Source: Planctomycetota bacterium
Lineage (GTDB): Bacteria > Planctomycetota > UBA1135 > UBA2386
Assembly: GCA_003235605.1 (NCBI GenBank)
Contig: QJVU01000073.1
Location: forward strand, 1 to 11,913
DNA: 11,913 nucleotides
Reading direction: 5' to 3'
Below the pieces are notes generated by a model. It ran no database searches. It saw only the letters and a list, made by a program, of their open reading frames with translations, and was not told the DNA's origin. Below are positions 3 to 11,913 of this stretch, one piece after another; positions within the stretch are counted from its first letter, which is position 1; the number at the start of each line of letters is the position of its first letter. Made by a program: the position numbers and the translations under genes.

Positions 3-134
3 ACCATCACCTGGGTCGGCGGTGACAAGCCGGATGGCATCCTCTAGGAGTACATCGCCGAGAATGTACACGAGATATCCCAGCAGGCCGGCCGGCGCGC
101 CCGCGAACTCAAGGACGTCGGCGAGACACGGCGC
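3..134 (+). pseudogene. Upstream in-frame part of the NapC/NirT-type cytochrome, interrupted by a TAG codon
   Basis: The frame of the cytochrome that follows (ATG at 135) stays open upstream to the window edge except for one TAG at 45-47. Before the stop it reads TITWVGGDKPDGIL. After it comes EYIAENVHEISQQAG and then a charged stretch leading into the CYDCH heme motif. This is the kind of sequence expected just before the first of the C-terminal heme motifs in NapC/NirT-type multiheme cytochromes, so the coding sequence looks continuous across the stop. No ATG, GTG, TTG or CTG occurs in this frame between the stop and 135. The interruption could be a real nonsense mutation (CAG, AAG or GAG to TAG), a sequencing or assembly error, or a recoded stop. 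The sequence alone cannot say which. Confidence 0.6.
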
Positions 135-932
135 ATGGGCTGCTATGACTGCCACAACCGGGTCGGACACGAGTTCACAACGCCCACACGCGCCCTCGAT
201 GAGGCTATGGCGGAGGGCACCATCGACCGTGGCCTTCCCTATATCAAGAAACTCGGGCTCGATATCGTTAGCCAGAGATACGGTACCGTCGCCTCCGCCT
301 ACGATGCCATCAACACTCTGCGCGTCACCTACCACAGCGAATACCCGTGGGTCTTCTTGGAACGCCCAACCCAGCTGCAGGACTCGCTGGATACCCTGGC
401 CTCTATCTACGCCCTAAACGCCAACCCGGAGATGAACGAGGCGAGTTCCGACTATCCCAGCTACATGGGACACATCGATTCCGCCGGCTGCTTCCGCTGC
501 CATGACGGCGGCCACTACAAGATCGTAGACGGCGCCCTCAGCGACGAGCCCATTCCCTCTCGCTGCTCTCTCTGCCACACTTTCCCCTCGTCCGGCGCCG
601 CTGTGACCAATGTCATGATCGGCATCCCACCGAAGACGCACGAGAACAACCTCTGGGTGTTTGAGCACAAGGACATGGCTGGCTCACTTGATGTGGGCAG
701 CACTTCCTGCAACGCCTGTCACAGCCAGACCTACTGCTCCAACTGCCACAACAGTGGCGCCACGTCCGTCAAGCACGACGACATGTACTACGATCACGCC
801 AACGTCATTGCCGGTGCCGGCCAGCAACCCTGTGCCTACTGCCACCAGCGCCCCTTCTGCGTCCGCTGCCACGAGGCAGACAAGGACAAGATCTTCCCCC
901 GCAGCGACGAACTCACCTTGACGCACCCATAG
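135..932 (+). CDS. Multiheme cytochrome c, NapC/NirT-type, C-terminal part (7 visible heme motifs)
   Basis: This 265-residue frame carries seven CXXCH c-type heme motifs: CYDCH at 3, CFRCH at 119, CSLCH at 144, CNACH at 192, CSNCH at 201, CAYCH at 233 and CVRCH at 242. Between the first and second are the segments YPWVFLERP and MGHIDSAGCFRCHDG. From memory, both are typical of NapC/NirT-family periplasmic multiheme cytochromes that pass electrons from quinol or membrane partners to extracytoplasmic acceptors. No signal peptide or membrane anchor follows the ATG at 135, so this start is only the first one available after an in-frame TAG at 45-47. The true N-terminus, with its anchor and further hemes, probably lies left of the window. 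There is no clear ribosome site before 135. The gene runs toward the minus-strand operon that ends at 1025, leaving a 92-nt convergent gap. Family assignment is fairly sure; whether the gene is functional is not. Confidence 0.75.
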   Translation: MGCYDCHNRVGHEFTTPTRALDEAMAEGTIDRGLPYIKKLGLDIVSQRYGTVASAYDAINTLRVTYHSEYPWVFLERPTQLQDSLDTLASIYALNANPEMNEASSDYPSYMGHIDSAGCFRCHDGGHYKIVDGALSDEPIPSRCSLCHTFPSSGAAVTNVMIGIPPKTHENNLWVFEHKDMAGSLDVGSTSCNACHSQTYCSNCHNSGATSVKHDDMYYDHANVIAGAGQQPCAYCHQRPFCVRCHEADKDKIFPRSDELTLTHP

Positions 933-1024: not shown

Positions 1025-2104
1025 CTAACGGGGCCTCTCGGCGATCGGCACCGCTTCAGGTTCGGACAGTGCCAGCGTGATAAGTCCGCCCATCCTGTCT
1101 ACGACGTACAGCGTTCCCCCCGTAATCCGCAGTCCAGCCGGCGCCTGGAAGATCGAATCCGACGTCGCATCATCCTCGCTCCGCCGCCCGATCATCCCCA
1201 GGTACGTCCCGTCGGCGGCGAACACCTCCACGGCCGCCTTCAGACCGTCGCTCACGAACACCTGTCCCTCTCGGTCCACCGCCACCCCCTTGGGTCGCGC
1301 CAGGCTGCCCGCCGTGTCACCCAGCTTCCCGAACTCGTCCGAATAGGCGCCCTCCGGCGATAGCTTCACGACCCGGCCGTTCAGCGTGTCTACTACATAC
1401 AGGTTTCCCGCCTCGTCCGTCGTCAGCGCGGACGGCACGTTGAATCCGTCGTGCCCGCCCGCCCGGGAGCCCGTTCCCGCGGCCGCGGTCAGATTACCGT
1501 CCGAGTCCAGGAGCAGCACCCTGTGGTTGTTGGCATCCGATACAGCAAGGCCGCCGGTCTTCAGGACGGCGATTCCGATCGGCCTTGGCGCCAGCGTATC
1601 ACCGGGACCTGGGGCGAGCGTCAGCGTCTTCTCCACGGTCCCGTCCAGCCCCATCGCGACCACCTGCGAGGCCATGGAGTTCGCAATGTACAGCCGCTCA
1701 CCGTCCGTCGCCAGCGCCATCGGGCCTGCCAGCCCTGCTCCTTCGCCCAGTGCGCCTGTCACCGTCCCGGACGCGTCTAGCTTCAGGACGCGGTTGTTGC
1801 CGCTGTCCAGCACGAAAGTGGCCCCGCCGGCTTCCACCGATGCTGCCGGAAACATCCAGTCCCCGCCTCCGGGTTGCGGCAGCTCGGCCCGCAGCTCGGC
1901 CGGGTATACAAGGTGAGATATCCCCAGCACCGGCAGCCCTTCGTGCTCTTCCCCCGCGCCGTGCTCGCCGGCCGGCAGGAAGGCGACGGCCCCCAGCGCT
2001 GCCCCGGTCACCAGCAACGCCAGCACCCCCAACAGACGGAGTCCCAGGCGGCTTTCAGATGCCTCTGCGTAAGGCCCGTACGGTGGCGACTGATATGCGT
2101 CCAT
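1025..2104 (-). CDS. Membrane-anchored NHL-repeat beta-propeller protein (NHL-3)
   Basis: The protein has 359 residues. It has a short cytoplasmic N-terminus, one transmembrane segment at about residues 21-43 (LLGVLALLVTGAALGAV), and then NHL-type repeats making one beta-propeller outside the membrane. Repeat signatures include FVLDSGNNRVLKLD, GLAVSDANNHRVLLLD and LYVVDTLNGRVVKLSP. It has no cysteine and no heme motif, so it is probably a structural or docking subunit rather than a redox carrier. The frame is open back to 2317, but I chose ATG 2104. It lies 8 nt after the stop of cytochrome A and begins immediately before the anchor, like its paralogue at 6911. Upstream of 2104 the frame only mirrors cytochrome A's coding strand. 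It is closely related to NHL-2, down to the shared DTAGSLARPKGVAVD block. It is the last gene of the operon. Its exact function is unknown. Confidence 0.85.
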   Translation of the reverse strand: MDAYQSPPYGPYAEASESRLGLRLLGVLALLVTGAALGAVAFLPAGEHGAGEEHEGLPVLGISHLVYPAELRAELPQPGGGDWMFPAASVEAGGATFVLDSGNNRVLKLDASGTVTGALGEGAGLAGPMALATDGERLYIANSMASQVVAMGLDGTVEKTLTLAPGPGDTLAPRPIGIAVLKTGGLAVSDANNHRVLLLDSDGNLTAAAGTGSRAGGHDGFNVPSALTTDEAGNLYVVDTLNGRVVKLSPEGAYSDEFGKLGDTAGSLARPKGVAVDREGQVFVSDGLKAAVEVFAADGTYLGMIGRRSEDDATSDSIFQAPAGLRITGGTLYVVDRMGGLITLALSEPEAVPIAERPR

Positions 2105-2112
2105 CGCTGGTC

Positions 2113-2820
2113 CTACTGCCTCGCCCGGTAATGGCAGTTCTGGCACAGGGGCAAGAACTCGTCGTGGGTCGTTGAAATCCCCAGCGTGTTCATCTTGGTC
2201 TCCGGCACCCCACCGTGCGGAGCGTGGCAGGTCAGGCACTGCACGTAGCTTCCCGGTTCCGTCCCTGCGGCGTTCCACAGACGCGTCCCATGGTAGTCGC
2301 CGGCGCCCGGGTCCCACGTAGTGTCCAACGGCTCCTGTTCCAGCACTTCGATATCCACATTAGTGGGATGGTCTTCCGGCCCTGCGTCTGCGTGGCAGTT
2401 CTCGCAGAAGCCTGCGCCCCCTGAGTGCTTCACAAACTTCCCGTATCCCTCATCATGCGGGTCGTGGCACCGGTCGCAGTCCTGTCCCTTGAGCCCTGGA
2501 ACGCTGAGGTGCTCGGGATATCCCTCGGCGAACGCGTATCGGCCCACCGTTGCCACTGTCCCGTCGTGGCAGCTGTAGCAAAGCGGTTTAAGTCCCGAAA
2601 ATTCCTCCTTCGGGTACGGGTCTCCCGCCCATAGCAGCTCCCCGTCCGACTCCCGTGGTATGTGGCATGACACGCAGGACTCGTTGCCCGGCGTCGCCAC
2701 GTCGTGCGGCGTCCCTGAGACGTCCTTTCGCTTCTCTGCCAGTACCAGCCCGCCGCCGCCCAGCACCGCGGCGGCCAGCGCGATAACGAGTCCCGCCTGG
2801 ATCAGCCGCAGCCCATGCAT
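2113..2820 (-). CDS. Exported hexaheme cytochrome c (cytochrome A), doubled-CXXCH type
   Basis: This 235-residue protein has a Sec signal or uncleaved anchor at residues 1-28 (hydrophobic LVIALAAAVLGGGGLVLA) and six CXXCH motifs: CVSCH at 49, CYSCH at 81, CDRCH at 115, CENCH at 139, CLTCH at 195 and CQNCH at 226. The HIPRE, HDGTV and HxPHxE neighbourhoods are characteristic of doubled-CXXCH periplasmic cytochromes. It should carry six c-type hemes outside the membrane and relay electrons to or from the NrfD-2/FeS-2 module. ATG 2820 lies 9 nt after the NrfD-2 stop. NHL-3 follows 8 nt after its own stop, so co-transcription is very likely. Its sister at 7625-6918 has exactly the same length, and its second and third heme motifs sit at identical residue positions. 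Exact electron partner unknown. Confidence 0.88.
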   Translation of the reverse strand: MHGLRLIQAGLVIALAAAVLGGGGLVLAEKRKDVSGTPHDVATPGNESCVSCHIPRESDGELLWAGDPYPKEEFSGLKPLCYSCHDGTVATVGRYAFAEGYPEHLSVPGLKGQDCDRCHDPHDEGYGKFVKHSGGAGFCENCHADAGPEDHPTNVDIEVLEQEPLDTTWDPGAGDYHGTRLWNAAGTEPGSYVQCLTCHAPHGGVPETKMNTLGISTTHDEFLPLCQNCHYRARQ

Positions 2821-2829
2821 GGACGTTAC

Positions 2830-4083
2830 CTAGCGTCCCGTCCTGTCCCAGACGTCGCCCCGCAGTGCCGAAGCTGCCTCCCAGGCCTCCCGGCCGGTCA
2901 CGTCAGGCTCCGGGTGCGTGATTACGTCGTCGACCTGTGGCCGGTCCCAGGGCGGGATGATATTTGCCAGCACCGAGAAGATATAGAACGGCAGGAGGAG
3001 GAACAGCACGGCCGCGGCCACGCCCTCTCGCCCCCCTATCGGCGGTGTGTAGCTTACGAACCCGCGCAGGCTCTTCGATATCTCCTGCCCCCCGATCACC
3101 ACATTCCATCGCATGGCGAACACCCCGACCACCACAAGCGCCGCCGCCAGCAGTGCCACCTGCGTGAACCTCTCCGGCTTCAGGCCGTACGAGAGGGCCA
3201 GGTATGCCAGGATGACCAGTGGCACGAGCGATCCCAGGAATATCTGCACCCCGAAGTAGGTAATCGGTATCTGTTGGGTCATCAGCGTCGAGATCGCCTC
3301 CCAGCTCTCCTCCGCCTCGTAGGCCATGCTCAGCACTTCCAGCCCCTCAATCGCCAGGTCAACGGCCAAGAACCCCAGTAGCCACTTCGTCATCGCGGCC
3401 ACGCAGTCGTGGTCCACCTCTCTGCCGCGGAGCTTTGATACAACGATGTACATCACTATCAGCAGCGCGATCCCCGAGACGATCGCGGATAGCAGGAATA
3501 TCACCGGCATCAGCGGTGTCGACCACCACGGGTTCGCCTTGATCGCTCCGAACAGGAATCCGACGTACCCGTGCAGCATCGCCGCCGAAGGGATTCCCAC
3601 TCCGGCCAGCACCTTGATCAGCCTCTCGTCCACCTCCCGGTCCTCTTCCGTGATCTTTGTGACCCCCAGCGTCGCGATCTTGCACACCAAGCCTCTGATA
3701 CCGCCTGCGTTGCGGGCGTAGTGGACAATGTCCGGGCGGAATACGAGCCAGACCTCAACTGTCACCAGGATCAGGTAGAACAGCCAGATGTACCCGAATC
3801 CCGCCATCGCGGATGTTGGGTTTGGCGTCAGGAATATCTGGAAACCACGCTCCGGCCGGCCCAGGTGCGCCTGCAAAGCGAGCGGCGCCACCAGCAGGAA
3901 CGACAGCGCCACTAGGAGCGACATCGCCGCCACTGGCTTCAGCGCCTTGATGTTGAACACGTGGTACAGCGACGACACGACGAACGCTCCCGCCACCAGC
4001 CCAGTGATAAACGGGTACAGGACGATCAGGATGCTCCACTGGATCTCCGCCTCGTTTGGGTAGATGAAGCCTTCCACCGGCAC
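2830..4083 (-). CDS. NrfD/PsrC-type integral membrane quinone-interacting subunit (NrfD-2)
   Basis: The protein has 417 residues and about eight to ten hydrophobic helices, in the usual size range for NrfD/PsrC proteins. Family marks are LGRPER at residues 74-79, the HGYVGFLFGAIKANPWWSTP segment near 171-190, and RWNVVIGGQ at 325-333. Members of this family anchor extracytoplasmic iron-sulfur subunits and exchange electrons with the quinone pool at the membrane. The start is a GTG at 4083, one nucleotide after the FeS-2 stop, with GAGG four bases upstream; the two are surely translationally coupled. The C-terminal tail from about residue 381 is hydrophilic. It differs clearly from NrfD-1 (longer, ActC/HmcC-like), so the operon has two subtypes. 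I cannot tell quinol oxidation from quinone reduction from the sequence. Confidence 0.9.
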   Translation of the reverse strand: MPVEGFIYPNEAEIQWSILIVLYPFITGLVAGAFVVSSLYHVFNIKALKPVAAMSLLVALSFLLVAPLALQAHLGRPERGFQIFLTPNPTSAMAGFGYIWLFYLILVTVEVWLVFRPDIVHYARNAGGIRGLVCKIATLGVTKITEEDREVDERLIKVLAGVGIPSAAMLHGYVGFLFGAIKANPWWSTPLMPVIFLLSAIVSGIALLIVMYIVVSKLRGREVDHDCVAAMTKWLLGFLAVDLAIEGLEVLSMAYEAEESWEAISTLMTQQIPITYFGVQIFLGSLVPLVILAYLALSYGLKPERFTQVALLAAALVVVGVFAMRWNVVIGGQEISKSLRGFVSYTPPIGGREGVAAAVLFLLLPFYIFSVLANIIPPWDRPQVDDVITHPEPDVTGREAWEAASALRGDVWDRTGR

Positions 4084-4084
4084 G

Positions 4085-4990
4085 CTACCTCACCGCCTCG
4101 TCCAGCCCGATGTACTTCGTTTTCGGCTTCGTGCCCAGTTCTGGCTTCAGCACCTGTACCCGCTCTTCGGCGAGGATCTTGCTGACAGCGCTCTCAGGGT
4201 CGTTCAGGTCCCCGAACACGCGGGCGCCCACCGGGCAGGCATCGACGCAGGCCGGCATCAGCCCCTTCGTGATCCGGTGGTAGCACCACGTGCATTTGTC
4301 GGCCACGCCCGATTGCCCTGTGGGCGTCACCTTGCCCTTCGGCACAAGGTACCGCGTACCGTATGGGCACGCCTGCACACAGTAACGGCAGCCGATGCAC
4401 CGCTCCTGGTTCACCAGCACGATCCCGTCCCGCGTCTTGTACGTCGCCCCGACAGGGCATACCTGCACGCATGGCGAGGCGTCGCACTGGTTGCAGAGTT
4501 TGGGCACGAAGAACGACTTCTCAATCTCCTCCGGGTCTACTTCGTCCCCGTCGTTCGGGAGCGGCACGTAGTTGGGCAGGCCGTTCTCGTTGTAGTCCAC
4601 CGTTGGCTCCACCACCAGCCGCTCTTGGCCGTCCGGGTTGTAGAACCCGTTAATCCCCCCTTCCGGAGAGTCCACCAGCACCTCGCCGTTCTTCAAGAAC
4701 CGGTACCGCTCCACCCACGTGCGGTTGCACTGGGGCTCCCAGGGCACGTTGTTTTCCAGCTTGCAGGCGCGGGCGCAGAGCCCGCAGCCGATGCACTTCG
4801 TCGTGTCCACGATGAACGCCCACGCGTGGTCCTCGGGGTTGTACCGGGCCCACGCCGCGTCCCCCTCGGCGTCAGCGTTTTCCGTCCCGCCGTTGCCACC
4901 CGGGATCACGCCCCGAAGCGTATAGACCAGCATGCCGCCGAACGCGGCATGAGTACCCAGCTTAAGGAACCTTCGCCGTGACAGAGCCAC
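4085..4990 (-). CDS. Tat-exported 4x[4Fe-4S] ferredoxin-like electron-transfer subunit (FeS-2)
   Basis: This 301-residue protein begins with a near-perfect twin-arginine signal (ALSRRRFLKLG), so it is exported folded with its cofactors. Sixteen cysteines fit four [4Fe-4S] clusters of the DmsB/NrfC/HmcB type: C66/69/72/76, C166/169/174/178, C198/201/204/208 and C233/236/248/252, three of the four groups ending in CP. Between the first two groups (residues 80-160) is a longer acidic insert. The start is GTG 4990, one base after the stop of cytochrome C, with a strong GGAGGAGGG ribosome site upstream. NrfD-2 follows after one base. In known complexes such proteins link a catalytic subunit to the NrfD quinone site. 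Here no molybdopterin subunit is adjacent, and hexaheme cytochromes flank the pair, so cytochromes are the likely partners (inference). Confidence 0.92.
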   Translation of the reverse strand: MALSRRRFLKLGTHAAFGGMLVYTLRGVIPGGNGGTENADAEGDAAWARYNPEDHAWAFIVDTTKCIGCGLCARACKLENNVPWEPQCNRTWVERYRFLKNGEVLVDSPEGGINGFYNPDGQERLVVEPTVDYNENGLPNYVPLPNDGDEVDPEEIEKSFFVPKLCNQCDASPCVQVCPVGATYKTRDGIVLVNQERCIGCRYCVQACPYGTRYLVPKGKVTPTGQSGVADKCTWCYHRITKGLMPACVDACPVGARVFGDLNDPESAVSKILAEERVQVLKPELGTKPKTKYIGLDEAVR

Positions 4991-4991
4991 C

Positions 4992-5600
4992 TTACCCGCC
5001 CTCCTCCTTCAAGCTGTGGCAGTTCAGGCACATATCCTCAGTCCGGTCCGCGTGGTTCAGCGGCAGTGGCTGCCACTCGCCCGGCCCGTGACACGCCATG
5101 CAGGCATTGCGGCCCTCAAGCGTGTGTGCCAGCTCCGGCGGGATCCCGGGGTCGTGCGGGTTGTGACAGGAAGTGCAGTCTGCCGCAACAGCACCCACCT
5201 CCGTCGCATGGTCCAGCGGGTCTACTTGCGGGAAGTTCTCCGGCCGGGATTCCAGCCCCGCGTGACACGTCAGGCACAGGTCTCGCGCGTTTGAAAGGAC
5301 CAGCGTCGCGTCTTCACCGGCCCGTGCTGCCTCGATATGCGGCTTCGTCAGGCCGTGGCAGTCCTCGCACCGTACTCCGGTGTGCGCTGACCCTTCCCAG
5401 ACCAGGTTGGTCTCCTCGTGGCACTCCGCGCACGACGTCGAAGCCTCGTGCTGCACCAGGCGTGTCGCCCACGCCCGCGGGTTATCCTCGGCCGAAAGGC
5501 CGATATACTCGATCGATAGCGTTGTGGCGAACGACCTCACGAAGAGGAACGTAATCACGAGCGCTATCAGCAGAGCGCCGGCACGTGCCAGGTGAGACAT
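4992..5600 (-). CDS. Membrane-anchored hexaheme cytochrome c (cytochrome C)
   Basis: The protein has 202 residues, with one N-terminal transmembrane segment (about residues 7-21, AGALLIALVITFLFV) and six CXXCH motifs: CAECH at 57, CEDCH at 78, CLTCH at 109, CTSCH at 142, CMACH at 167 and CLNCH at 191. The anchor followed by dense hemes resembles NrfH/NapC-like or ActA-like membrane cytochromes. It could take electrons from, or give them to, FeS-2/NrfD-2. I start it at ATG 5600, which has GGAGG four bases upstream and lies directly before the anchor. The frame is open back to 5819, but that stretch has no membrane signal and falls in the intergenic gap. It is not a close paralogue of cytochromes A and B: it is shorter and its heme spacing differs. 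It opens the second half of the operon after a 246-nt gap and ends one base before FeS-2. Confidence 0.87.
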   Translation of the reverse strand: MSHLARAGALLIALVITFLFVRSFATTLSIEYIGLSAEDNPRAWATRLVQHEASTSCAECHEETNLVWEGSAHTGVRCEDCHGLTKPHIEAARAGEDATLVLSNARDLCLTCHAGLESRPENFPQVDPLDHATEVGAVAADCTSCHNPHDPGIPPELAHTLEGRNACMACHGPGEWQPLPLNHADRTEDMCLNCHSLKEEGG

Positions 5601-5846
5601 AGTACCTCCGTGTACCAAGATCTGACACGAACGTGCCATCCCGCCATGTGGCGTCCGATGGATTTTTGCCCGGCCAAGTGATAGAGCGACTTCAGGCACA
5701 GCCCCCGTGTACCTGTTACAGGCGCGGGGTAGGTGGCAAAGGTAACGTATCTCTGAACCGATGGCGGCAGCGGAAAACCTGTGTCTGGAGGTAGAGCGGG
5801 CGAGCTTGGCCAGGGCCACGCCGCTCTCAGGCTGGCTGGCTATACG
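5601..5846 (-). promoter_or_regulatory. 246-nt gap inside the operon with several inverted repeats
   Basis: This is the only real gap among the ten minus-strand genes, between the NHL-2 stop (5847) and cytochrome C (5600). It holds CGCCA-TG-TGGCG at 5642-5653, CACG-AA-CGTG at 5626-5635, and a larger imperfect hairpin at 5703-5729. That hairpin has outer arms CCCCG/CGGGG and inner arms CCTGT-T-ACAGG. No hairpin is followed by a T-run, and I find no convincing -35/-10 pair. It could hold a second promoter, an attenuator or a processing site separating the two half-operons. Ribosome site GGAGG sits at 5605-5609. Confidence 0.4.
5703..5729. repeat. Imperfect inverted repeat within the intra-operon gap
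   Basis: Outer arms CCCCG (5703-5707) and CGGGG (5725-5729) enclose an 11-bp palindrome-like core, CCTGTTACAGG (5712-5722), with unequal internal spacers of four and two bases. It could be a hairpin in the transcript or an operator. A related 11-mer, CCTATCACAGG, overlaps the candidate promoter at 11482-11492. Confidence 0.4.
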
Positions 5847-6911
5847 CTAATAAGGGCTCGGCGGCGCCGGTTCCGGCGGTTCGGATAGCTCCAGGACGAC
5901 AAGCCCCGCAAGGCCGTCCATCACGGTCAGAGTGTTCCCCTCTAGAAGGAGTCCGGCGGGGGCCTCGAACACAGAGCCCTCCCCGGCGTCCTGCGGATCG
6001 GCTCTCCCGATCACTCCTAGGTACGCACCGCCCGGTCCGAATACCTCTATCGCTGCTTGGAGGCCGTCGCTGACGAACACTCGTCCTGAAGCGTCTACGG
6101 CTACGCCCTTGGGCCTCGCCAGCGACCCCGCCGTATCCGCCAGACCGCCGAACTGAGCAAGGAAGGCGCCACGCGGCGAGAGCTTGATAACCCGCCCGTT
6201 CAGCGTGTCCACGACGTACACGTTGCCCGCAGCGTCTGTGGTCAGTCCCGCCGGAACGTTGAATCCATCAACGCCGTCGGCTCGCAATCCTTTCCCGGCC
6301 TGTGCCACCACGTTTCCGTTCTGGTCCAGGAAGATGACGCGGTGGTTATCCGCGTCGGAGACAACAATGGTGCCGTCCGGACTGACTGCTATGCCTATTG
6401 GCCGTGGGTTCACGTCGCCCGGCTGTCCCTGCAGGGGAATGGTCTTCAGCAGCTGACCGGCAGTGTTCAGCACCACCACCTCCGACGCCAGCGTGTTCGC
6501 TACGTACAGGGTTGCCCCGTCTGTCGCCATCGCCATCGGCTGGTTAAGAGCGGCCCCCCACTCAGACGAGCTATCCAGCACCCCCAGCACTCGGTCGTCG
6601 TAGTCCATCTTCAAGATACGATTGTTACCCGAATCCAGGACGAACCTGTCTTGACCAATGGCGACGACTCCCGTGGGCAGCAGCCAGCGCTCACCCGCCG
6701 GCTGCGCGATGGCCTGCACCACCTCGGCAGGATACACATGTTGAGACACCTTCCTGCTCACCGGTATGCCTGAGTGTGTGGCTTCGATCGGCGGGAAGAG
6801 AATCGCCAGCACCGCACCAGCTATGATCAGCAGCCCTACGATGAGCACAAGGAGCGGCCGCAGCCCTGACTCTCGCTTCTCCTCCTCCCACGGACCGAAC
6901 TCGCTGTCCAC
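5847..6911 (-). CDS. Membrane-anchored NHL-repeat beta-propeller protein (NHL-2)
   Basis: The protein has 354 residues: an acidic cytoplasmic N-terminus, one transmembrane segment at about 19-39 (PLLVLIVGLLIIAGAVLAILF), then NHL repeats predicted to fold into one extracytoplasmic propeller. Signatures include RFVLDSGNNRILKMD, IVVSDADNHRVIFLD and VYVVDTLNGRVIKLSP. It contains no cysteine. The start is a GTG at 6911, six bases after the stop of cytochrome B, with a purine-rich AAGGGG just upstream. It is a close paralogue of NHL-3 (359 residues), sharing DTAGSLARPKGVAVD exactly and aligning along its full length. It differs from the larger fusion NHL-1. NHL propellers usually serve protein-protein contacts. 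Here the context suggests organising the hexaheme cytochromes at the membrane surface. The short C-terminal tail is proline-rich. Confidence 0.88.
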   Translation of the reverse strand: MDSEFGPWEEEKRESGLRPLLVLIVGLLIIAGAVLAILFPPIEATHSGIPVSRKVSQHVYPAEVVQAIAQPAGERWLLPTGVVAIGQDRFVLDSGNNRILKMDYDDRVLGVLDSSSEWGAALNQPMAMATDGATLYVANTLASEVVVLNTAGQLLKTIPLQGQPGDVNPRPIGIAVSPDGTIVVSDADNHRVIFLDQNGNVVAQAGKGLRADGVDGFNVPAGLTTDAAGNVYVVDTLNGRVIKLSPRGAFLAQFGGLADTAGSLARPKGVAVDASGRVFVSDGLQAAIEVFGPGGAYLGVIGRADPQDAGEGSVFEAPAGLLLEGNTLTVMDGLAGLVVLELSEPPEPAPPSPY

Positions 6912-6917
6912 CGCCCC

Positions 6918-7625
6918 TTACCTCTCACTTGCGCGGTTGTGACAACTCCCGCAAAGCGACTCTGAATAACCGACCTCGGCCGTGTAGGGGACCGTCATAA
7001 TCAGTGTGTCGTGCTGACCCCCGTGCGGGCTATGGCACGTCAGGCACGCTACCAGGTTGCCCGGCCCCGTTCCCTCCGCGTTCCAGAGTCGAGTGCCGAC
7101 GAAATCCCCCGCCTTCGGGTCGAACGTCGTATCGTCCGGGTATATCCCCGCGGCCGGGGCGTCCACTCCAATCGGATGGTCTGCCGGTCCCGCGCGGAAG
7201 TGGCAGTTCCAGCAGAGGTTTGCCTCGTGAGGCATCTTCAGGAACTTGCTGGTCTCCTCGTGAGGATTGTGGCAACGGTCGCAGTCCTCTCCCTCCACGC
7301 CCGGCTTCCGCAAATGCTCCGGCCGGTTCGAGTCGAATACATAGCTCCTCTCACGTGTGACCGTTCCGTCATGGCAACTGAAGCACATGCGCTTTTCCCC
7401 CGACAGCGGGCCATCCTGGTTCGTCAGTCCCCCTGGCCACAGCAACTGTCCGGCGGCGTCTCGCGGAATGTGACAATAGATGCAGGCCGGTACACCAGCG
7501 GATGACACGTCGTGCTTCGTCTGCGCCACGTCCTTCTGTTCGCCCAGCGCCAGCCGGCCGCTGCTCACCAGGGCAAGGGCCGCCAGCCCCGCTACAAGCG
7601 CAAGTGCCAGCGCCGCGTTTCTCAT
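6918..7625 (-). CDS. Exported hexaheme cytochrome c (cytochrome B), paralogue of cytochrome A
   Basis: This 235-residue protein has a signal peptide or anchor at residues 1-28 (ALALALVAGLAALALVSSG) and six CXXCH motifs: CIYCH at 48, CFSCH at 81, CDRCH at 115, CWNCH at 138, CLTCH at 194 and CGSCH at 225. Length and motif order match cytochrome A, with shared CHIPR, SCHDGTV, GTRLWNA and CLTCH blocks, so the two are duplicates that have diverged. It should hold six c-type hemes in the periplasm or on the outer face. Its ATG overlaps the NHL-1 stop by four bases (ATGA), which implies translational coupling. NHL-2 follows after six bases. It probably exchanges electrons with the FeS-1/NrfD-1 module, though this is inferred from position only. 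Confidence 0.9.
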   Translation of the reverse strand: MRNAALALALVAGLAALALVSSGRLALGEQKDVAQTKHDVSSAGVPACIYCHIPRDAAGQLLWPGGLTNQDGPLSGEKRMCFSCHDGTVTRERSYVFDSNRPEHLRKPGVEGEDCDRCHNPHEETSKFLKMPHEANLCWNCHFRAGPADHPIGVDAPAAGIYPDDTTFDPKAGDFVGTRLWNAEGTGPGNLVACLTCHSPHGGQHDTLIMTVPYTAEVGYSESLCGSCHNRASER

Positions 7626-9274
7626 GGACTCTCCGCCTCGGTCACCAGAGGTTCATAGACAAACACGCCCGCCAGTTTGTCGGCGACATAGAGATCGTTG
7701 CCTTCCACCTTGACGCTGTGGGGCGCCCCGAACCGCGCATCGGTAATCGACCCCACGTATCCACCGTTTGGCGCGAACACCGAGACCATGTGCGCTGCTT
7801 CGTCGGCAACGAAGATTAGGCCTTGTTCGTTCACCGCGACGCCCGTCGGTGTGTCAAGGCGTCCGGCGCCGATGGTCTGCAGTAAGACTCCGAACGGTGA
7901 GAACTTCTTTATCACCCGGTTCAGGCTGTCGGCGACGTACAGGTTCTCGTATATATCGAGCCCAATGCCGCGCGGCTCGTTGAAACCCTCGGGCTTGGTC
8001 GAACGTGCGCCTTCCCCTATCACCCGCCGGTACTCGCCGCTCTCGTTCAGCAAGATCACGCGGTGATTTGCCGAATCGCTGAGCCATATGTCGCCCGATC
8101 CGGTCAGGACGATCCCCGCCGTCGCGATCGGCTCTTCCCCTTCGGGGATCACGGGCCGGATCACGTTGTCAACGCTTCCAGACACGCTAACCACAACCAC
8201 GTCGCCGCTCGGCGCCGCAACATAGAGATGCTCTCCCGACGCATCCATCGCCTGCGAATTCTTGATCGAGACGTCGCCAGTCCGCCCGGCCTCAAGTATG
8301 AAGGTCAGGGTTCCCTCAGACGTAACCGTTGCGATTCGCCCGCGTTCCCCATCCAGGATACGAATGCGTGTGCCGTTGAGTGCCACATCGGTCGGCAGCG
8401 CAATGGATCCCGGCGCCGGTTGCCCCGACGCATCGTACGTCACCGTCTGTATGTACGAGGTGAGTGTCGCGGGAAGAGGCACCGGATCCGGCAGCGTAAT
8501 CGGCTGCGTCGGGTCGAATTCTCCGCCTGCTCCGTCCCCTTGGAACTGGGCGCCCGGAGTTGCCAGGCTCGCTTCTTCGGGCTCCCGCGCTCTATTGACA
8601 AGCCATGACGCAGGCACCGCTATCGCCACCATCAGTACCACGAGTACGAATAGAATCCTGCCTAGTGGCGCCGGACGGTGCACCTGTCTGTCCCACGGCT
8701 GGGGCGCTCGCATCGCTGCTGCACCCGCCTCGGCGCCGGCTGTGCGAATGCCGATGACGGTCGTCAACAACGCGAACATCAGGCTCCCCCACACCGCCAG
8801 CACCATTACGCCAACCCCCAGCGGTAGCCACTCCCTGATCGGATCGATTCCAAAGTGCGCCGGCTCGTATGGCGACTCCGCTTCGGCCGCCTCGAAGTGA
8901 TATGTCGCTTGCGTCGCCGCATAGTCACCCGCGCCGTCGAACCGCACCACCGCCGTGTGCTCACCCTCCCACCTTGGCTGGTACAGCACCGAAGCCATCC
9001 CCGTGGCGTCCGAGACGGAGTCCCCCACCTTCATCAACCGCTCACCGAAGATGTTCGTGATGATGTAGAAAGTTATCGGCATGCCCGCCACAGGCGAGTC
9101 GTTATCGGTGAGACGCGCCGAAAGCACCAGTGTCCGTTGGCCGGGGCTCGGCTCCTTCGGCGGGAGTCCCTCCAGGTGCATTCCCGAATGTCCGTCGGCG
9201 GAGACGTCGCCGGCATACAATGAGCCCCCCAGCAATGCCACCAGCAGAAGTCCGAGGGCGGCCAGGCGTCTCAC
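7622..9274 (-). CDS. Ig-like domain, two TM helices and NHL propeller fusion protein (NHL-1)
   Basis: This 550-residue protein has an unusual layout. A signal peptide (about 1-26, VSA before the likely cut) is followed by an Ig-like beta domain at about 45-130 (GQRTLVLSARLTDNDSPVAG, with RWEGEHTAVVRFDGAGDY near its end). A transmembrane helix lies at about 149-175, a short positively charged loop at 176-204, and a second helix at about 205-226. A linker rich in acidic and proline residues leads to an NHL-type propeller at about 285-545 (IWLSDSANHRVILLN, LYVADSLNRVIKKFSP, IFVADEAAHMVSVF). Predicted topology puts both the Ig-like domain and the propeller outside. It has no cysteine. The GTG start at 9274 directly follows the NrfD-1 stop, and its end overlaps cytochrome B by four bases. 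The propeller is more divergent than the NHL-2/NHL-3 pair. A scaffold role is inferred. Confidence 0.85.
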   Translation of the reverse strand: MRRLAALGLLLVALLGGSLYAGDVSADGHSGMHLEGLPPKEPSPGQRTLVLSARLTDNDSPVAGMPITFYIITNIFGERLMKVGDSVSDATGMASVLYQPRWEGEHTAVVRFDGAGDYAATQATYHFEAAEAESPYEPAHFGIDPIREWLPLGVGVMVLAVWGSLMFALLTTVIGIRTAGAEAGAAAMRAPQPWDRQVHRPAPLGRILFVLVVLMVAIAVPASWLVNRAREPEEASLATPGAQFQGDGAGGEFDPTQPITLPDPVPLPATLTSYIQTVTYDASGQPAPGSIALPTDVALNGTRIRILDGERGRIATVTSEGTLTFILEAGRTGDVSIKNSQAMDASGEHLYVAAPSGDVVVVSVSGSVDNVIRPVIPEGEEPIATAGIVLTGSGDIWLSDSANHRVILLNESGEYRRVIGEGARSTKPEGFNEPRGIGLDIYENLYVADSLNRVIKKFSPFGVLLQTIGAGRLDTPTGVAVNEQGLIFVADEAAHMVSVFAPNGGYVGSITDARFGAPHSVKVEGNDLYVADKLAGVFVYEPLVTEAESP

Positions 9275-10654
9275 TCACCACCCGCTTTCCAGCGGCGACG
9301 TTTCCCGTGTAGCTTCCGGTGATTCCGGTGTCGCTGCGTGTTCTTTCTCTTCCAGTTCCTCCATCTCATAGATGGACAGGACCGGGAAGAGGCGGAAGAA
9401 CAGCATCAGCAACAGCGGCACAGCTGCCGCCGCGGCGAGGGTGATGGCGATTTCGACCCGGCTCGGCCAGTACACCCCAAAGTTCGTGGGCATCATGGGC
9501 GTCGCCATCGCCGGTACCACGATGAGAAATCGCTTGAGCCACATGGCCACCACCACAAGAGCGGATGCGACGACGATCCAGTTCACGGTTCTCGTTTTCG
9601 GGAAAGAGAGGAGCGTGATGGGCACCACCAGGCCGCCAAACACGAATCCCCAGAACAGCGGCGCATATCTCCCCAGCAAGGTCTCCTCAAGGAGCGCGCC
9701 CGATCCCTGCCCCTCCACGAATCCCTCCATCTTGTAGCCCTCTGTCAATAGCTCCGCGAACATGAAGTACCCGTAGCCCATCGCGAGGGCCAGCAACATG
9801 TTGGCCAGGTACTTGAAATGTTGTTCATTCAGGTAATCCTCCAGCCGGTAGGCCTTTCTGAACCCTGCGATCACGAGGATCACCGTGGCGACTCCGGAGT
9901 AGAGTGCTGCAACAACGAAATAAGGTGCGTACATCGTGCTGTTCCATCCTGGCCGGACCGTCATGCCGAACAGCCATGCCAGCACCGAGTGAACCGAAAC
10001 CGCCAGCGGAATGATCACCACTGCCACTACCGTCATGTTCCGTTCCAGGATGTTCTTCTCTGGCTTCGTGCCCTGCCACCCCAGCGAGAGCCGGTCGTAC
10101 AGAAGGTTCCGCAACCGGCCTGCCGCGGGGCCCACGTGATCCCTGCAAAACGCCAGGTCCGGTATCAGGGGCAGGAACAGGAAGACGATCGTGGCCGCCA
10201 TGTACGTGTTCACCGCCACCACGTCCCACAGCACAGGGGACCCAACCTGTCCGTGGACCACCAGATTCAGCATGCGGTCCGGCCGCCCGAGGTCGATGAT
10301 CGGGAACAATGATCCGATCAGCAACGTAACCAGGGCCATCGCCTCGGCCATACGCACCATTGGCGCCCGCCACGGGGCGTTCGTCAGCCGAAGGATCGCC
10401 GAGGTCACCGCTCCCCCGTAGCTCAGACCGATGAAGAACACCATGTCTGTGATGTAGAAGCCCCATGACACCCGCTGGTTCAGGCCCGTCACCCCCAGCC
10501 CGTAGTGCAGCTGCTCTAGGAAGGCCACCGCGCCTCCGAGCACGATGATCCCCAGCAAGACCAGGATAGGCCAGAACAACATCCCCGGTGCCACCATGGG
10601 CCTCAGGGCTGCTGCGTGAAGCTTGTTTGTCTCCAGGGCGACGGGGCGATCCAC
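9275..10654 (-). CDS. NrfD-family integral membrane subunit, ActC/HmcC-like (NrfD-1)
   Basis: The protein has 459 residues and about ten hydrophobic helices, in the size range of ActC/HmcC/DsrP-type NrfD proteins. Marks are WGFYITDMVFFIGLSYGG at 64-81, DLGRPDR at 121-127, HSVLAWLFGM followed by GWNSTMYAPYF at 222-246, and WLKRFLIVVP at 372-381. The charged C-terminal tail is cytoplasmic or flexible. In known complexes this subunit carries the quinone site and holds the iron-sulfur protein at the membrane. The GTG start at 10654 lies seven bases after the FeS-1 stop, with GAGGA four bases upstream. NHL-1 starts directly after its TGA. NrfD-2 in the same operon belongs to a different NrfD branch. 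Two NrfD proteins per operon recalls ACIII, where ActC and ActF are both NrfD-like, but no ActB-type large subunit is present here. Confidence 0.9.
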   Translation of the reverse strand: MDRPVALETNKLHAAALRPMVAPGMLFWPILVLLGIIVLGGAVAFLEQLHYGLGVTGLNQRVSWGFYITDMVFFIGLSYGGAVTSAILRLTNAPWRAPMVRMAEAMALVTLLIGSLFPIIDLGRPDRMLNLVVHGQVGSPVLWDVVAVNTYMAATIVFLFLPLIPDLAFCRDHVGPAAGRLRNLLYDRLSLGWQGTKPEKNILERNMTVVAVVIIPLAVSVHSVLAWLFGMTVRPGWNSTMYAPYFVVAALYSGVATVILVIAGFRKAYRLEDYLNEQHFKYLANMLLALAMGYGYFMFAELLTEGYKMEGFVEGQGSGALLEETLLGRYAPLFWGFVFGGLVVPITLLSFPKTRTVNWIVVASALVVVAMWLKRFLIVVPAMATPMMPTNFGVYWPSRVEIAITLAAAAAVPLLLMLFFRLFPVLSIYEMEELEEKEHAATPESPEATRETSPLESGW

Positions 10655-10661
10655 AGCGTCC

Positions 10662-11456
10662 TCAGCTTTCCAGGTCCTGGCCGTGGCCTTTCACGTACCA
10701 CACCCGCGGACTCGTGTTCAGCTCCTCTTTGTAGCGGAACCCATCGTTCTCGCGAAGGTACTGGTAAAGGTCATATGTTTCGCCGGACCTGTTCGTCATC
10801 ACTCCGGACACCATGTCCGCAATGTATATCGCGTCCATCCGGCAGGCTTCCACGCATGCCGGCAGCCGCCCCACACGCGTGTAGTGGACGCAGAGAACGC
10901 ACTTCCCAACGGTACCTCGCGTCTGTGGCACCGGATATTCGGGCATCGGGTTCTCGAACGGTTGCGGCGGCTTCACCTGCTCCCAGTAGTTGAAGTAGCG
11001 GGCGTTGTACGGGCAGGCCGCCATGCAGATCCGGCACCCTATGCAGAGCTCCTGGTCCACCAGGATCACGCCTTCCGGGTTCTTGAACGTGGCCCTCACA
11101 GGGCAGACCTTCAGACAGGGCGCTTCCTCGCAATTCATGCAAGGCCGGGGCATAAAGACCTTGTTCCCGTGGTGGTCCTCTATTTCGTAGACCTTGATCC
11201 ACTCATGGTCGTTCGGCAGGTAGTGGGTGTTCTGGCAGGCTCCCGTGCATTCCTTGCAGCCGTCACACCGGCGGAGGTCGATCACCATCCCCCACTGTCG
11301 CTCCGTCTCCTCGCGCTGCGATGAGCTGCCCAGGGCGCGAAACGGTCGCCGTGCCAGGCCGAGTCCGCCCAGCGTAAGCGCGGCCAGCCCCCCCAGTCCC
11401 TGGAGTAGACGTCTTCGTGAAACCGCCAATTGGCTCCTTGCTAGCGGCCCCCTCAT
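10662..11456 (-). CDS. Tat-exported 4x[4Fe-4S] ferredoxin-like electron-transfer subunit (FeS-1)
   Basis: This 264-residue protein has a twin-arginine signal (AVSRRRLLQGLGG) and sixteen cysteines for four [4Fe-4S] clusters: C64/67/70/74, C106/109/114/118, C138/141/144/148 and C186/189/201/205. The last group ends CVEACR where CP is more usual, as in FeS-2. ATG 11456 has no clear ribosome site. TTG at 11429 has AAGGAG four bases upstream and would give LAVSRRRLLQ, matching the MALSRRRFLK start of FeS-2, so it may be the true start. The two ferredoxins share fold and cluster layout but differ between clusters: FeS-1 lacks the long acidic insert after cluster 1. It is first in the operon, followed after 7 nt by NrfD-1. 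It probably passes electrons between NrfD-1 and the cytochromes. Confidence 0.9.
   Translation of the reverse strand: MRGPLARSQLAVSRRRLLQGLGGLAALTLGGLGLARRPFRALGSSSQREETERQWGMVIDLRRCDGCKECTGACQNTHYLPNDHEWIKVYEIEDHHGNKVFMPRPCMNCEEAPCLKVCPVRATFKNPEGVILVDQELCIGCRICMAACPYNARYFNYWEQVKPPQPFENPMPEYPVPQTRGTVGKCVLCVHYTRVGRLPACVEACRMDAIYIADMVSGVMTNRSGETYDLYQYLRENDGFRYKEELNTSPRVWYVKGHGQDLES
11434..11439 (-). promoter_or_regulatory. AAGGAG ribosome site supporting an internal TTG start for FeS-1
   Basis: On the minus strand AAGGAG is followed by four bases and then TTG at 11429-11427. No comparable purine-rich site precedes the ATG at 11456. Starting at the TTG puts the Tat motif four residues from the N-terminus, exactly as in FeS-2. 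The spacing is a little short, so the choice remains open. Confidence 0.45.
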
Positions 11457-11572: not shown

Positions 11573-11628
11573 GGAGGACATATCGATAGATGGTCTGACC
11601 CCCGGGGGTCTACCCTGTTCCCCCGTGT
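11568..11628. repeat. Nested inverted repeat; possible terminator of the LLM gene
   Basis: Outer arms ACACGGG (11568-11574) and CCCGTGT (11622-11628) enclose a perfect 14-bp palindrome, GACCCCCGGGGGTC (11597-11610). The region lies just after the stop of the minus-strand LLM oxidoreductase (11655), so it may terminate that transcript. No T-run follows on the minus strand. The plus strand has TTTT directly after the outer arm, but no plus-strand gene is seen here. Confidence 0.35.
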
Positions 11629-11654: not shown

Positions 11655-11913
11655 CTACTTCAGCAGTTGCTCGTAGATTCGCCCTTCTTCGACGGGGTCG
11701 TATCCCGAAACGTTCACGTTGTGCAGGTTGATCCCGGCCGCCGCCTCTTCCTCCAGGCGCTCCCGGCACTCCTCAACCGGCCCGATGAATCCCAGCGAGT
11801 TCGACAGCTCGTCCGAAACGGCGTCGTATCCGGCCGCCGAGCCTCCCTCTTTCCACGCCATCCGGATCGCGTTTGCCTCGTCCGCGAACCCCATATCGCC
11901 CAGCTGCTGGTAG
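11655..11913 (-). CDS. Luciferase-like (LLM) flavin-dependent oxidoreductase, C-terminal fragment
   Basis: The frame is open to the right edge of the window. It encodes the last 86 residues, beginning YQQLGDMGFADEANAIR. It includes LSNSLGFIGPVEECRERLEEEAAAGI and ends IYEQLLK. The GFIGPVEECRERLEE block fits the C-terminal part of bacterial luciferase-like monooxygenases and F420- or FMN-dependent reductases (the GTPEEVAERLRE-like helix). The catalytic N-terminal barrel is outside the window, so cofactor and substrate cannot be judged. It points the same way as the cytochrome operon but is 198 nt upstream of it, with a likely promoter between. It is probably a separate transcription unit. An ATG at 11894 lies inside the conserved region and is not the real start. 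Confidence 0.75.
   Translation of the reverse strand, partial: YQQLGDMGFADEANAIRMAWKEGGSAAGYDAVSDELSNSLGFIGPVEECRERLEEEAAAGINLHNVNVSGYDPVEEGRIYEQLLK

Follow-up and report, generated by a model that had tools for sequence, protein, structure and literature searches.

Several described electron-transfer systems join an iron-sulfur (FeS) protein to a membrane protein of the NrfD type, and CbcU of Geobacter is NrfD-like. The nearest published gene sets are those of Methanoperedenaceae, in which NrfD stands beside a 4Fe-4S protein and multiheme cytochromes; the available text presents them as putative menaquinone:cytochrome c oxidoreductases and relates one group of their NrfD proteins to a Dehalococcoidales family (PMC7327174). 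A further Ca. Methanoperedens cluster is described, in the part of the paper at hand, as combining an NrfD-like and a four-cluster protein with two 7-heme cytochromes and a membrane cytochrome b of the Fdh-like type, and some of its genes rise at electrodes (PMC10874420). In Shewanella, SirCD is presented in the sections available as an FeS-NrfD quinol dehydrogenase that feeds several respiratory pathways, SirD being called NrfD/PsrC-type (PMC11434368). Here, we analyzed contig QJVU01000073.1 from the assembly of a Planctomycetota bacterium, a stretch of 11,913 nucleotides (the window), in which ten minus-strand genes at 1025..11456 form an electron-transfer operon. We propose, with a probability of roughly 0.65, that this operon encodes two quinone:cytochrome c oxidoreductases without a catalytic subunit together with their first acceptors, in which quinol would be oxidized and its electrons passed via FeS clusters to hexaheme cytochromes and on to larger secreted cytochromes. 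Published clusters of FeS protein, NrfD and multiheme cytochromes have been proposed for electron export, as far as the accessible text goes (PMC7327174, PMC10874420), and thus support the proposal. The features of the window are as follows.

10662..11456, minus strand: FeS1 of module A, a Tat-type protein with four [4Fe-4S] clusters, ActB C-terminal/DsrO/PsrB-like (DsrO NCBIfam model 182.6 bits, below the cut-off of 200)
9275..10654, minus strand: NrfD1 of module A, a predicted ActC-like quinone-binding membrane subunit (PF03916, 133 bits)
7622..9274, minus strand: NHL1 of module A, a fusion of an immunoglobulin-like (Ig-like) domain, transmembrane segment(s) and an NHL propeller
6918..7625, minus strand: Cyt1 of module A, a hexaheme cytochrome c of the Paired_CXXCH type with 6 CXXCH (PF09699, 57 bits) and an N-terminal hydrophobic segment
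5847..6911, minus strand: NHL2 of module A, an NHL propeller with an N-terminal hydrophobic segment, paired with Cyt1
5601..5846, no strand: the gap of 246 nt at the border of modules A and B, in which scans gave no consensus sigma-70 or terminator match
4992..5600, minus strand: Cyt2 of module B, a hexaheme cytochrome c with an N-terminal hydrophobic segment, in the NrfB position of nrfBCD
4085..4990, minus strand: FeS2 of module B, a Tat-type protein with four [4Fe-4S] clusters, NrfC/TtrB/DsrO-like
2830..4083, minus strand: NrfD2 of module B, a predicted quinone-binding membrane subunit on the NrfD/TtrC side of the family (PF03916, 150 bits)
2113..2820, minus strand: Cyt3 of module B, a hexaheme cytochrome c with 6 CXXCH, homologous to Cyt1
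1025..2104, minus strand: NHL3 of module B, an NHL propeller with an N-terminal hydrophobic segment, paired with Cyt3
48..932, plus strand: a fragment of a convergent multiheme cytochrome with seven CXXCH, whose left end runs off the contig

The genes are transcribed in the order FeS1, NrfD1, NHL1, Cyt1, NHL2, Cyt2, FeS2, NrfD2, Cyt3, NHL3. Both FeS proteins have a twin-arginine start (SRRRLLQ in FeS1, SRRRFLK in FeS2) and four groups of four cysteines, with 16 cysteines in FeS1 and 17 in FeS2. Six CXXCH motifs in each of the three cytochromes give 18 hemes in total. One N-terminal hydrophobic segment apiece is found in Cyt1, Cyt2, Cyt3, NHL2 and NHL3, and NHL1 has further segments at about residues 149-177 and 198-216 besides its N-terminal one; all three propellers match NHL in Pfam. 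Motif counts and Pfam scans thus confirm the inventory of a preliminary description of this DNA: ten same-strand genes with two Tat-type four-cluster FeS proteins, two NrfD proteins, three hexahemes and three NHL propellers. Of the three tethered propellers that it listed, NHL1 is corrected to an Ig-like part, transmembrane segment(s) and a propeller. The tight packing that it noted applies to eight of nine junctions, which measure at most 9 nt or overlap; the successive values from FeS1 to NHL3 are 7, 0, -4, 6, 246, 1, 1, 9 and 8 nt. The ninth junction, NHL2-Cyt2, is 246 nt long with the ATG at 5600 as the Cyt2 start and 27 nt long with the GTG at 5819, and the start at 5600 fits an alignment of 8 relatives. 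Promoter and terminator scans of the window gave only one weak plus-strand terminator match (11604-11622).

Relatives were sought in 393 genomes sampled from the class Dehalococcoidia and in two orders and one family inside it (25, 18 and 15 genomes), and an NrfD1-alignment search of named genomes provided 77 NrfD1 loci. Custom scripts, rather than an established gene finder, called the genes of these loci, and some of the starts are incorrect (in locus L002, NHL2 comes out short). Module A alone (FeS1-NrfD1-NHL1-hexaheme-NHL) is present in L002 and L003, and also in L012, where its beginning is truncated; one Dehalococcoidia genome contains both L002 and L012, as two copies. Module B alone (Cyt2-FeS2-NrfD2-Cyt3-NHL3) is present in L095 of genome G178. 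Because relatives carry A or B by itself and the sole long gap lies at the A/B border, the operon is resolved into two modules, A (FeS1-NrfD1-NHL1-Cyt1-NHL2) and B (Cyt2-FeS2-NrfD2-Cyt3-NHL3), and the preliminary view of a single undescribed complex is not retained. What survives of that view is the quinone-to-cytochrome conduit, which is supported as a reading, though not as one undescribed complex. At E <=1e-40 the NHL1 profile matched 8 of the 393 genomes, with full Ig+NHL length only in G001 (two matches) and G003 (one), and NrfD2 was matched at E <=1e-100 in 9 of the 393. In G003, G324 and G178, relatives of the two modules or of their cores lie on separate contigs. In L078 of G003, Cyt2-FeS2 is followed by an NrfD2 fused to an NHL propeller (788 aa), and P0274 is a second NrfD2::NHL fusion, as judged from its Pfam list and sequence. 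No viral contigs bearing NrfD2 were found. In G324, L113 ends inside a Cyt3-like gene (4 CXXCH) and L101 starts inside one (2 CXXCH), and the two may be adjoining parts of a single module B.

The ten-gene order itself was not seen beyond this contig anywhere read in the class sample or in the two orders and the family, as would fit two unrelated operons that adjoin by chance or were joined in assembly. We consider such an origin very improbable. The homologues P0010 (NrfD1), P0128 (NHL1) and P0248 (NrfD2) share the same longest contig of 261,099 bases and the same sources, so that a second genome probably carries modules A and B together on a single contig. Moreover, Cyt1/Cyt3 and NHL2/NHL3 are related pairs in our trees, and in L001 a Cyt-NHL pair stands directly before FeS1-NrfD1. 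Close homologues exist for NrfD1 (P0002 95%, P0003 94%), NHL1 (P0121, 93%) and NrfD2 (P0241, 97%). With homologues 93-97% identical and the order within each module recurring in relatives, the gene set is not a product of chance.

The core of module A is placed near alternative complex III. Against the PDB, the NrfD1 profile gave its best matches to four ActC chains (E 2e-83 to 1e-75) and reached ActF chains at no better than E 1.5e-9 and 5.6e-4; one of the four ActC entries is named 'Alternative Complex III subunit C', and the other three we take to belong to the same complex. A tree of 50 hand-chosen NrfD rows, mostly from 140 profile hits, places NrfD1 and 13 near relatives in a 100/100 clade beside a 99/99 ActC/ActF clade, the joining forks being without resolution in this tree. 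The NrfD2 family forms its own 100/100 clade on the opposite side of the tree. E. coli NrfD and HybB fall on that side too, but on long branches, so that the positions of these two are uncertain. The earlier assignment of the two NrfD proteins to different branches therefore agrees with the tree. Like alternative complex III, module A combines an NrfD that best matches ActC, an FeS protein that resembles the FeS part of ActB, and a multiheme cytochrome partner. It differs in lacking the ActB molybdopterin-like part, ActF, ActD and ActE, none of which was seen in the operon; in having an Ig-like/NHL protein instead, and hexahemes; and in the Asp121 of NrfD1, where seven ActC rows have His. ActA is a pentaheme cytochrome, and the loci among the relatives that resemble alternative complex III carry a gene with 5 CXXCH. 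NrfD2 does not take the place of ActF as a second NrfD: it lies in the other clade and retains the helix-2 His and the Ser.

The 77 NrfD1 loci show what accompanies this core. An Ig-like gene comes next in 51, an Ig+NHL gene in 3, and in 6 the Ig-like part is fused to NrfD; 3 loci end at NrfD, and 14 have no Ig-like gene. The counts were obtained with an Ig profile iterated four times (67, then 92 hits), in which drift is possible. The NrfD1::Ig fusions (648-693 aa; L020, L021, L025, L032, L034 and L041) come from records labelled Chloroflexota and Actinomycetota, including a Cryobacterium. For the large subunit, 12 PF00384 loci supplied their longest frames as queries, and L063, itself among the positives below, supplied one ActB. 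An ActB-like or molybdopterin large subunit lies within two genes of NrfD in 11 of the 14 non-Ig loci and in none of the 60 Ig loci, some of which have short flanks, with L012, L073 and L074 starting at NrfD so that their upstream side is not judgeable. Further off, molybdopterin matches on the same strand occur in L022, L028 and L031. Among ten NrfD2 entries, representing nine places (L078 equals L121), the sole molybdopterin-type match, in L117, lies on the other strand. The contrast of 0/60 with 11/14 makes the missing adjacent catalytic subunit the rule in the loci read and not a loss here; a subunit lost only from this contig was considered and rejected, none being adjacent in the relatives read. 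Pfam scans found no molybdopterin or other catalytic subunit encoded in this contig, both ends of which are cut, and both modules accordingly have the FeS-NrfD-multiheme composition with no catalytic subunit in the operon. The preliminary description had reported this absence correctly for the contig, but had regarded the missing large subunit as an anomaly. That view is not supported, since the subunit is also absent beside NrfD in the Ig-bearing relatives read, and clusters free of a catalytic subunit have already been proposed, according to the published text available (PMC7327174, PMC10874420).

Module B corresponds to an NrfB-C-D-like unit. The best NCBIfam models for NrfD2 are NrfD and then TtrC, both below cut-off; the NrfD2 profile matches E. 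coli NrfD (27 bits) and the NrfD1 profile does not, and hhalign gives NrfD2 a probability of 95.6 against E. coli NrfD. By sequence, NrfD2 had no real match among solved structures, none matched Cyt1, and Cyt2 had three weak matches. With NrfBCD of the nitrite reductase system, the module shares the order cytochrome-FeS-NrfD and the His, Ser and Arg of NrfD; unlike it, module B has a hexaheme instead of a pentaheme, no NrfA, and the additional Cyt3-NHL3. The operon was also compared with known complexes taken whole, and the NCBIfam cut-offs for Nrf, Ttr, Qrc, Hmc and DsrP were all missed. For NrfABCD, NrfD2 scored 61.2 of the 347.6 needed and FeS2 143.1 of 377.6 (NrfC), and the contig has no NrfA. 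For QrcABCD, QrcC gave 128.9 with FeS1 and 122.2 with FeS2, of 400, and QrcD 44.2 with NrfD1 and 29.1 with NrfD2, of 570. For Hmc, the scores were 85.6 (FeS1) and 95.2 (FeS2) of 420 for HmcB, 31.5 (NrfD1) and 36.4 (NrfD2) of 550 for HmcC, and 19.2 of 400 for HmcA with Cyt1. The DsrO cut-off is narrowly passed by FeS2 (202.0 of 200) and failed by FeS1 (182.6), DsrP gave 116.1 with NrfD1 and 45.9 with NrfD2 of 350, and DsrM, DsrK and DsrJ were not among the matches listed (for the two FeS proteins, the best 25 of 44 and the best 25 of 56). Identity of the operon with any one of these known complexes was rejected.

The residues described for quinone binding and ion gating in NrfD-like proteins are, in the text at hand, a Ser near the pocket, a helix-2 residue that is acidic or His (or Ser), and a helix-8 Arg (PMC8076601). 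H73, S91 and R325 of NrfD2 align with H74, S92 and R306 of E. coli NrfD, and D121 and S139 of NrfD1 align with D109 and S129 of HybB. R375 of NrfD1 is kept in all 36 rows of the NrfD1/ActC/ActF set. The helix-2 residue is His in 7/7 ActC rows, and the 23 NrfD1-type rows divide into Asp (14), His (7) and Cys (2). As these residues are kept, both NrfD proteins look able to use quinone, judging from the alignments. The two ActF rows have Ser and Gly in helix 2, and one of them has the pocket Ser. The gate Arg is aligned in both, despite the statement in the available part of PMC8076601 that it is not conserved in ActF, so the gate is not taken here as a feature that separates NrfD1 from ActF.

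The propellers accompany the cytochromes. Across 12 loci, selected so as not to repeat one another, a gene of the NHL2/NHL3 type comes after a cytochrome with at least 5 CXXCH at 9 of 11 places; the exceptions are L099, with none before it, and L101, at a contig end. Only the NHL1 propellers form one clade (98/99). Descent of the Cyt-NHL pairs along with modules A and B was rejected, as the propeller and cytochrome trees give no supported A/B split. Comparison of L002 (module A) with L101 (a Cyt3-like end and NHL3) gave 44% identity for the second NHL genes (L002_4961/L101_6659), and 52% (L002_7515/L101_4426) and 39% (L002_6028/L101_4426) for large hexahemes; by eye, the C-terminal stretch of the L002 hexaheme at 7515-8825 is presumably dockerin-like. 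The fusions NrfD1::Ig, Ig::NHL (as in NHL1) and NrfD2::NHL suggest contacts between the subunits concerned. From these fusions and the gene pairs, we infer that the propellers are docking or scaffold parts.

On these grounds, the operon may work as follows. In each module, NrfD would bind quinol near the outer membrane face, and electrons would pass from quinol to the Tat-exported four-cluster FeS protein and then to the membrane-anchored hexahemes, with the NrfD half-channels possibly coupling electron transfer to ion movement. Module A would provide a core like that of alternative complex III (FeS protein and ActC-like NrfD) with the Ig-like/propeller protein in place of the ActB molybdopterin-like part, and module B an NrfB-C-D-like unit of hexaheme, FeS protein and NrfD; in both, the products would assemble into a complex. 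The membrane-anchored propellers accompany the hexahemes and would probably scaffold or dock them. From there, electrons would reach larger secreted multiheme cytochromes, genes for which lie close by in relatives, and would probably leave the cell or pass to a soluble partner.

Several observations weigh against this proposal, among them the ten-gene order, which was seen nowhere else at the places read. Six relatives' genomes (G001, G003, G178, G324, G028 and G002) have 11 to 39 PF00384 matches each, and in L011 a molybdopterin-type match lies six genes away on the opposite strand. With so many molybdopterin enzymes encoded elsewhere in these genomes, a catalytic partner in trans is possible: the modules could supply a soluble enzyme (a molybdopterin reductase, or a multiheme one for nitrite or another substrate) in the way that nrfBCD supplies NrfA. 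The order cytochrome-FeS-NrfD of module B is that of nrfBCD, and the supply of several respiratory pathways by SirCD, as told in the portion of the report consulted (PMC11434368), offers a precedent. We nevertheless think this unlikely. PF02335 (NrfA) is matched in only one of the six genomes, G028, where both matches are 7-heme cytochromes beside its module B, and the opposite-strand gene of L117 is the sole molybdopterin-type match in the nine NrfD2 places. As a separate observation, many PF00384 frames in the six genomes are about 940 aa long, an apparent expansion of the family.

COX1 is found in all six of these genomes, so the electrons could go to an oxidase and not outside, and cytochrome b (PF00033), present in G001, G178, G324 and G002, was not found in the drafts G003 and G028. 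In a respiratory role, module A (and B) would replace or supplement complex III and pass quinol electrons via the hexahemes to a heme-copper oxidase, like alternative complex III; the best match of NrfD1 to ActC fits this, and a monoheme cytochrome c often comes directly after related FeS-NrfD-Ig units. Such a role appears doubtful, however, in view of the cytochrome b of four of the six genomes and the location of COX1 on contigs other than those of the modules in these drafts. The acceptors here, moreover, are hexahemes, with larger multiheme cytochromes nearby in relatives. The direction of flow can likewise be argued. In Qrc, the FeS-NrfD part runs the opposite way, from cytochrome to quinone (PMC13059093), acting as a quinone reductase in the passages available (PMC13059093, PMC8076601). 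By analogy with Qrc and cytochrome c3, electrons from outside donors or partner cells could be taken up via the hexahemes to quinone, or one module could run each way; the two NrfD proteins do belong to different clades and differ in helix 2 (Asp121 in NrfD1, His73 in NrfD2). We regard uptake as distinctly unlikely, because the Qrc cut-offs were missed (QrcC at best 128.9 of 400, QrcD at best 44.2 of 570) and the nearest published gene sets are interpreted, in the text seen, as quinol oxidizing (PMC7327174). Quinol oxidation with export through the hexahemes therefore remains the reading that we prefer.

Neighbouring genes vary among the relatives. Module A relatives are followed by a CBB3-type cytochrome c, by ethylbenzene-dehydrogenase-like (EB_dh) proteins, or by proteins that match nothing in Pfam; in Chloroflexota, FeS-NrfD-Ig is often followed by two of this last sort, of about 200 and 500 aa (L009 11919-13975 and similar loci). 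NrfD2 loci have SPFH/HflK-like, Rieske and cytochrome b proteins as neighbours. A similar-looking gene precedes Cyt2-FeS2-NrfD2 in L115 (158-919), L116 (115-900) and L118 (7681-8448), the L115 copy being SPFH/HflK-like, and Rieske and cytochrome b genes lie near in L115 and L117. In L114, Cyt2-FeS2-NrfD2 comes after two 7-heme cytochromes and a b561-type protein. One of these cytochromes (495 aa, seven hemes), directly before Cyt2-FeS2-NrfD2, matches NapC/NirT and NrfH models. In the window itself, the plus-strand multiheme cytochrome gene converges on the operon with its stop at 932 and had been absent from the preliminary description. Its sole match at E <=1e-3 among 1,421 called proteins of the loci is the 495-aa L114 cytochrome (E 1e-22). 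An in-frame TAG stands at 45-47 and the first ATG of the open stretch at 135; the TAG could be a sequencing error or the mark of a broken gene, or the true start could lie further in. Upstream of the operon, 11655-11912 on the minus strand encodes the C-terminal fragment of a Bac_luciferase (luciferase-like monooxygenase) protein cut by the contig end, with 23.7 bits, below the Pfam cut-off of 27.9.

Compared with published systems, the operon shares with the Ca. Methanoperedens clusters the combination of FeS protein, NrfD and multiheme cytochromes with no catalytic subunit named in the accessible text (PMC7327174, PMC10874420). Those clusters are single modules with no NHL propeller or Ig-like subunit noted in that text, and they were compared with NrfD2 by description. 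The cluster of PMC10874420, as far as it is described in the part available, is much like L114: both have two 7-heme cytochromes, accompanied by an Fdh-like membrane cytochrome b in the one and a b561-type protein in the other. Geobacter Cbc4 (CbcSTU) and SirCD are likewise quinol dehydrogenases of an FeS protein and a membrane subunit with no catalytic subunit of their own, yet they are single modules, no propellers are noted in the sections consulted, and CbcU is called a b-type cytochrome there (PMC11434368). NHL proteins are encoded among extracellular multiheme cytochromes as UetHI in Gallionella (PMC10734462) and as DFE_0451 and DFE_0463 in Desulfovibrio ferrophilus (PMC9769857); the portions available note no NrfD, and the likeness is one of description. 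In open-licence PMC full text, we found no paper describing this gene set and none treating NrfD, NHL propellers and Dehalococcoidia jointly. The available text of PMC11650866 has nothing on these genes, and that of PMC10553843 no NHL or NrfD. Machines of this kind are already known; what looks new is the presence of propeller and Ig-like parts and the coupling of module A with module B.

The FeS-NrfD-Ig pattern is possibly a more useful result than the ten-gene operon. The Ig-like domain is tied to the ActC-like NrfD in 60 of 77 loci and was unseen beside an ActB-like subunit, which provides a testable rule for the exchange of peripheral parts around complex-III-like cores. Database names such as 'polysulfide reductase NrfD' and 'molybdopterin-containing oxidoreductase membrane subunit' are given to these proteins, though the loci read encode no such enzyme alongside. 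As a tentative extension, FeS-NrfD-Ig may represent a quinol dehydrogenase family that has no name yet and is closely akin to alternative complex III, with a membrane subunit of the Ig-like type replacing the molybdopterin-like ActB part; its records carry the labels Chloroflexota, Bacteroidota, Actinomycetota, Deinococcota, Bacillota and archaea. In some Dehalococcoidia, the core could have gained NHL propellers and hexahemes and joined an NrfBCD-like module to give an undescribed double-entry complex for electron export. In our judgement, the export of electrons from the membrane by uncultured Chloroflexota is poorly understood, and the operon offers a concrete parts list for it: two quinone-binding cores from different branches, three hexahemes and three propellers.

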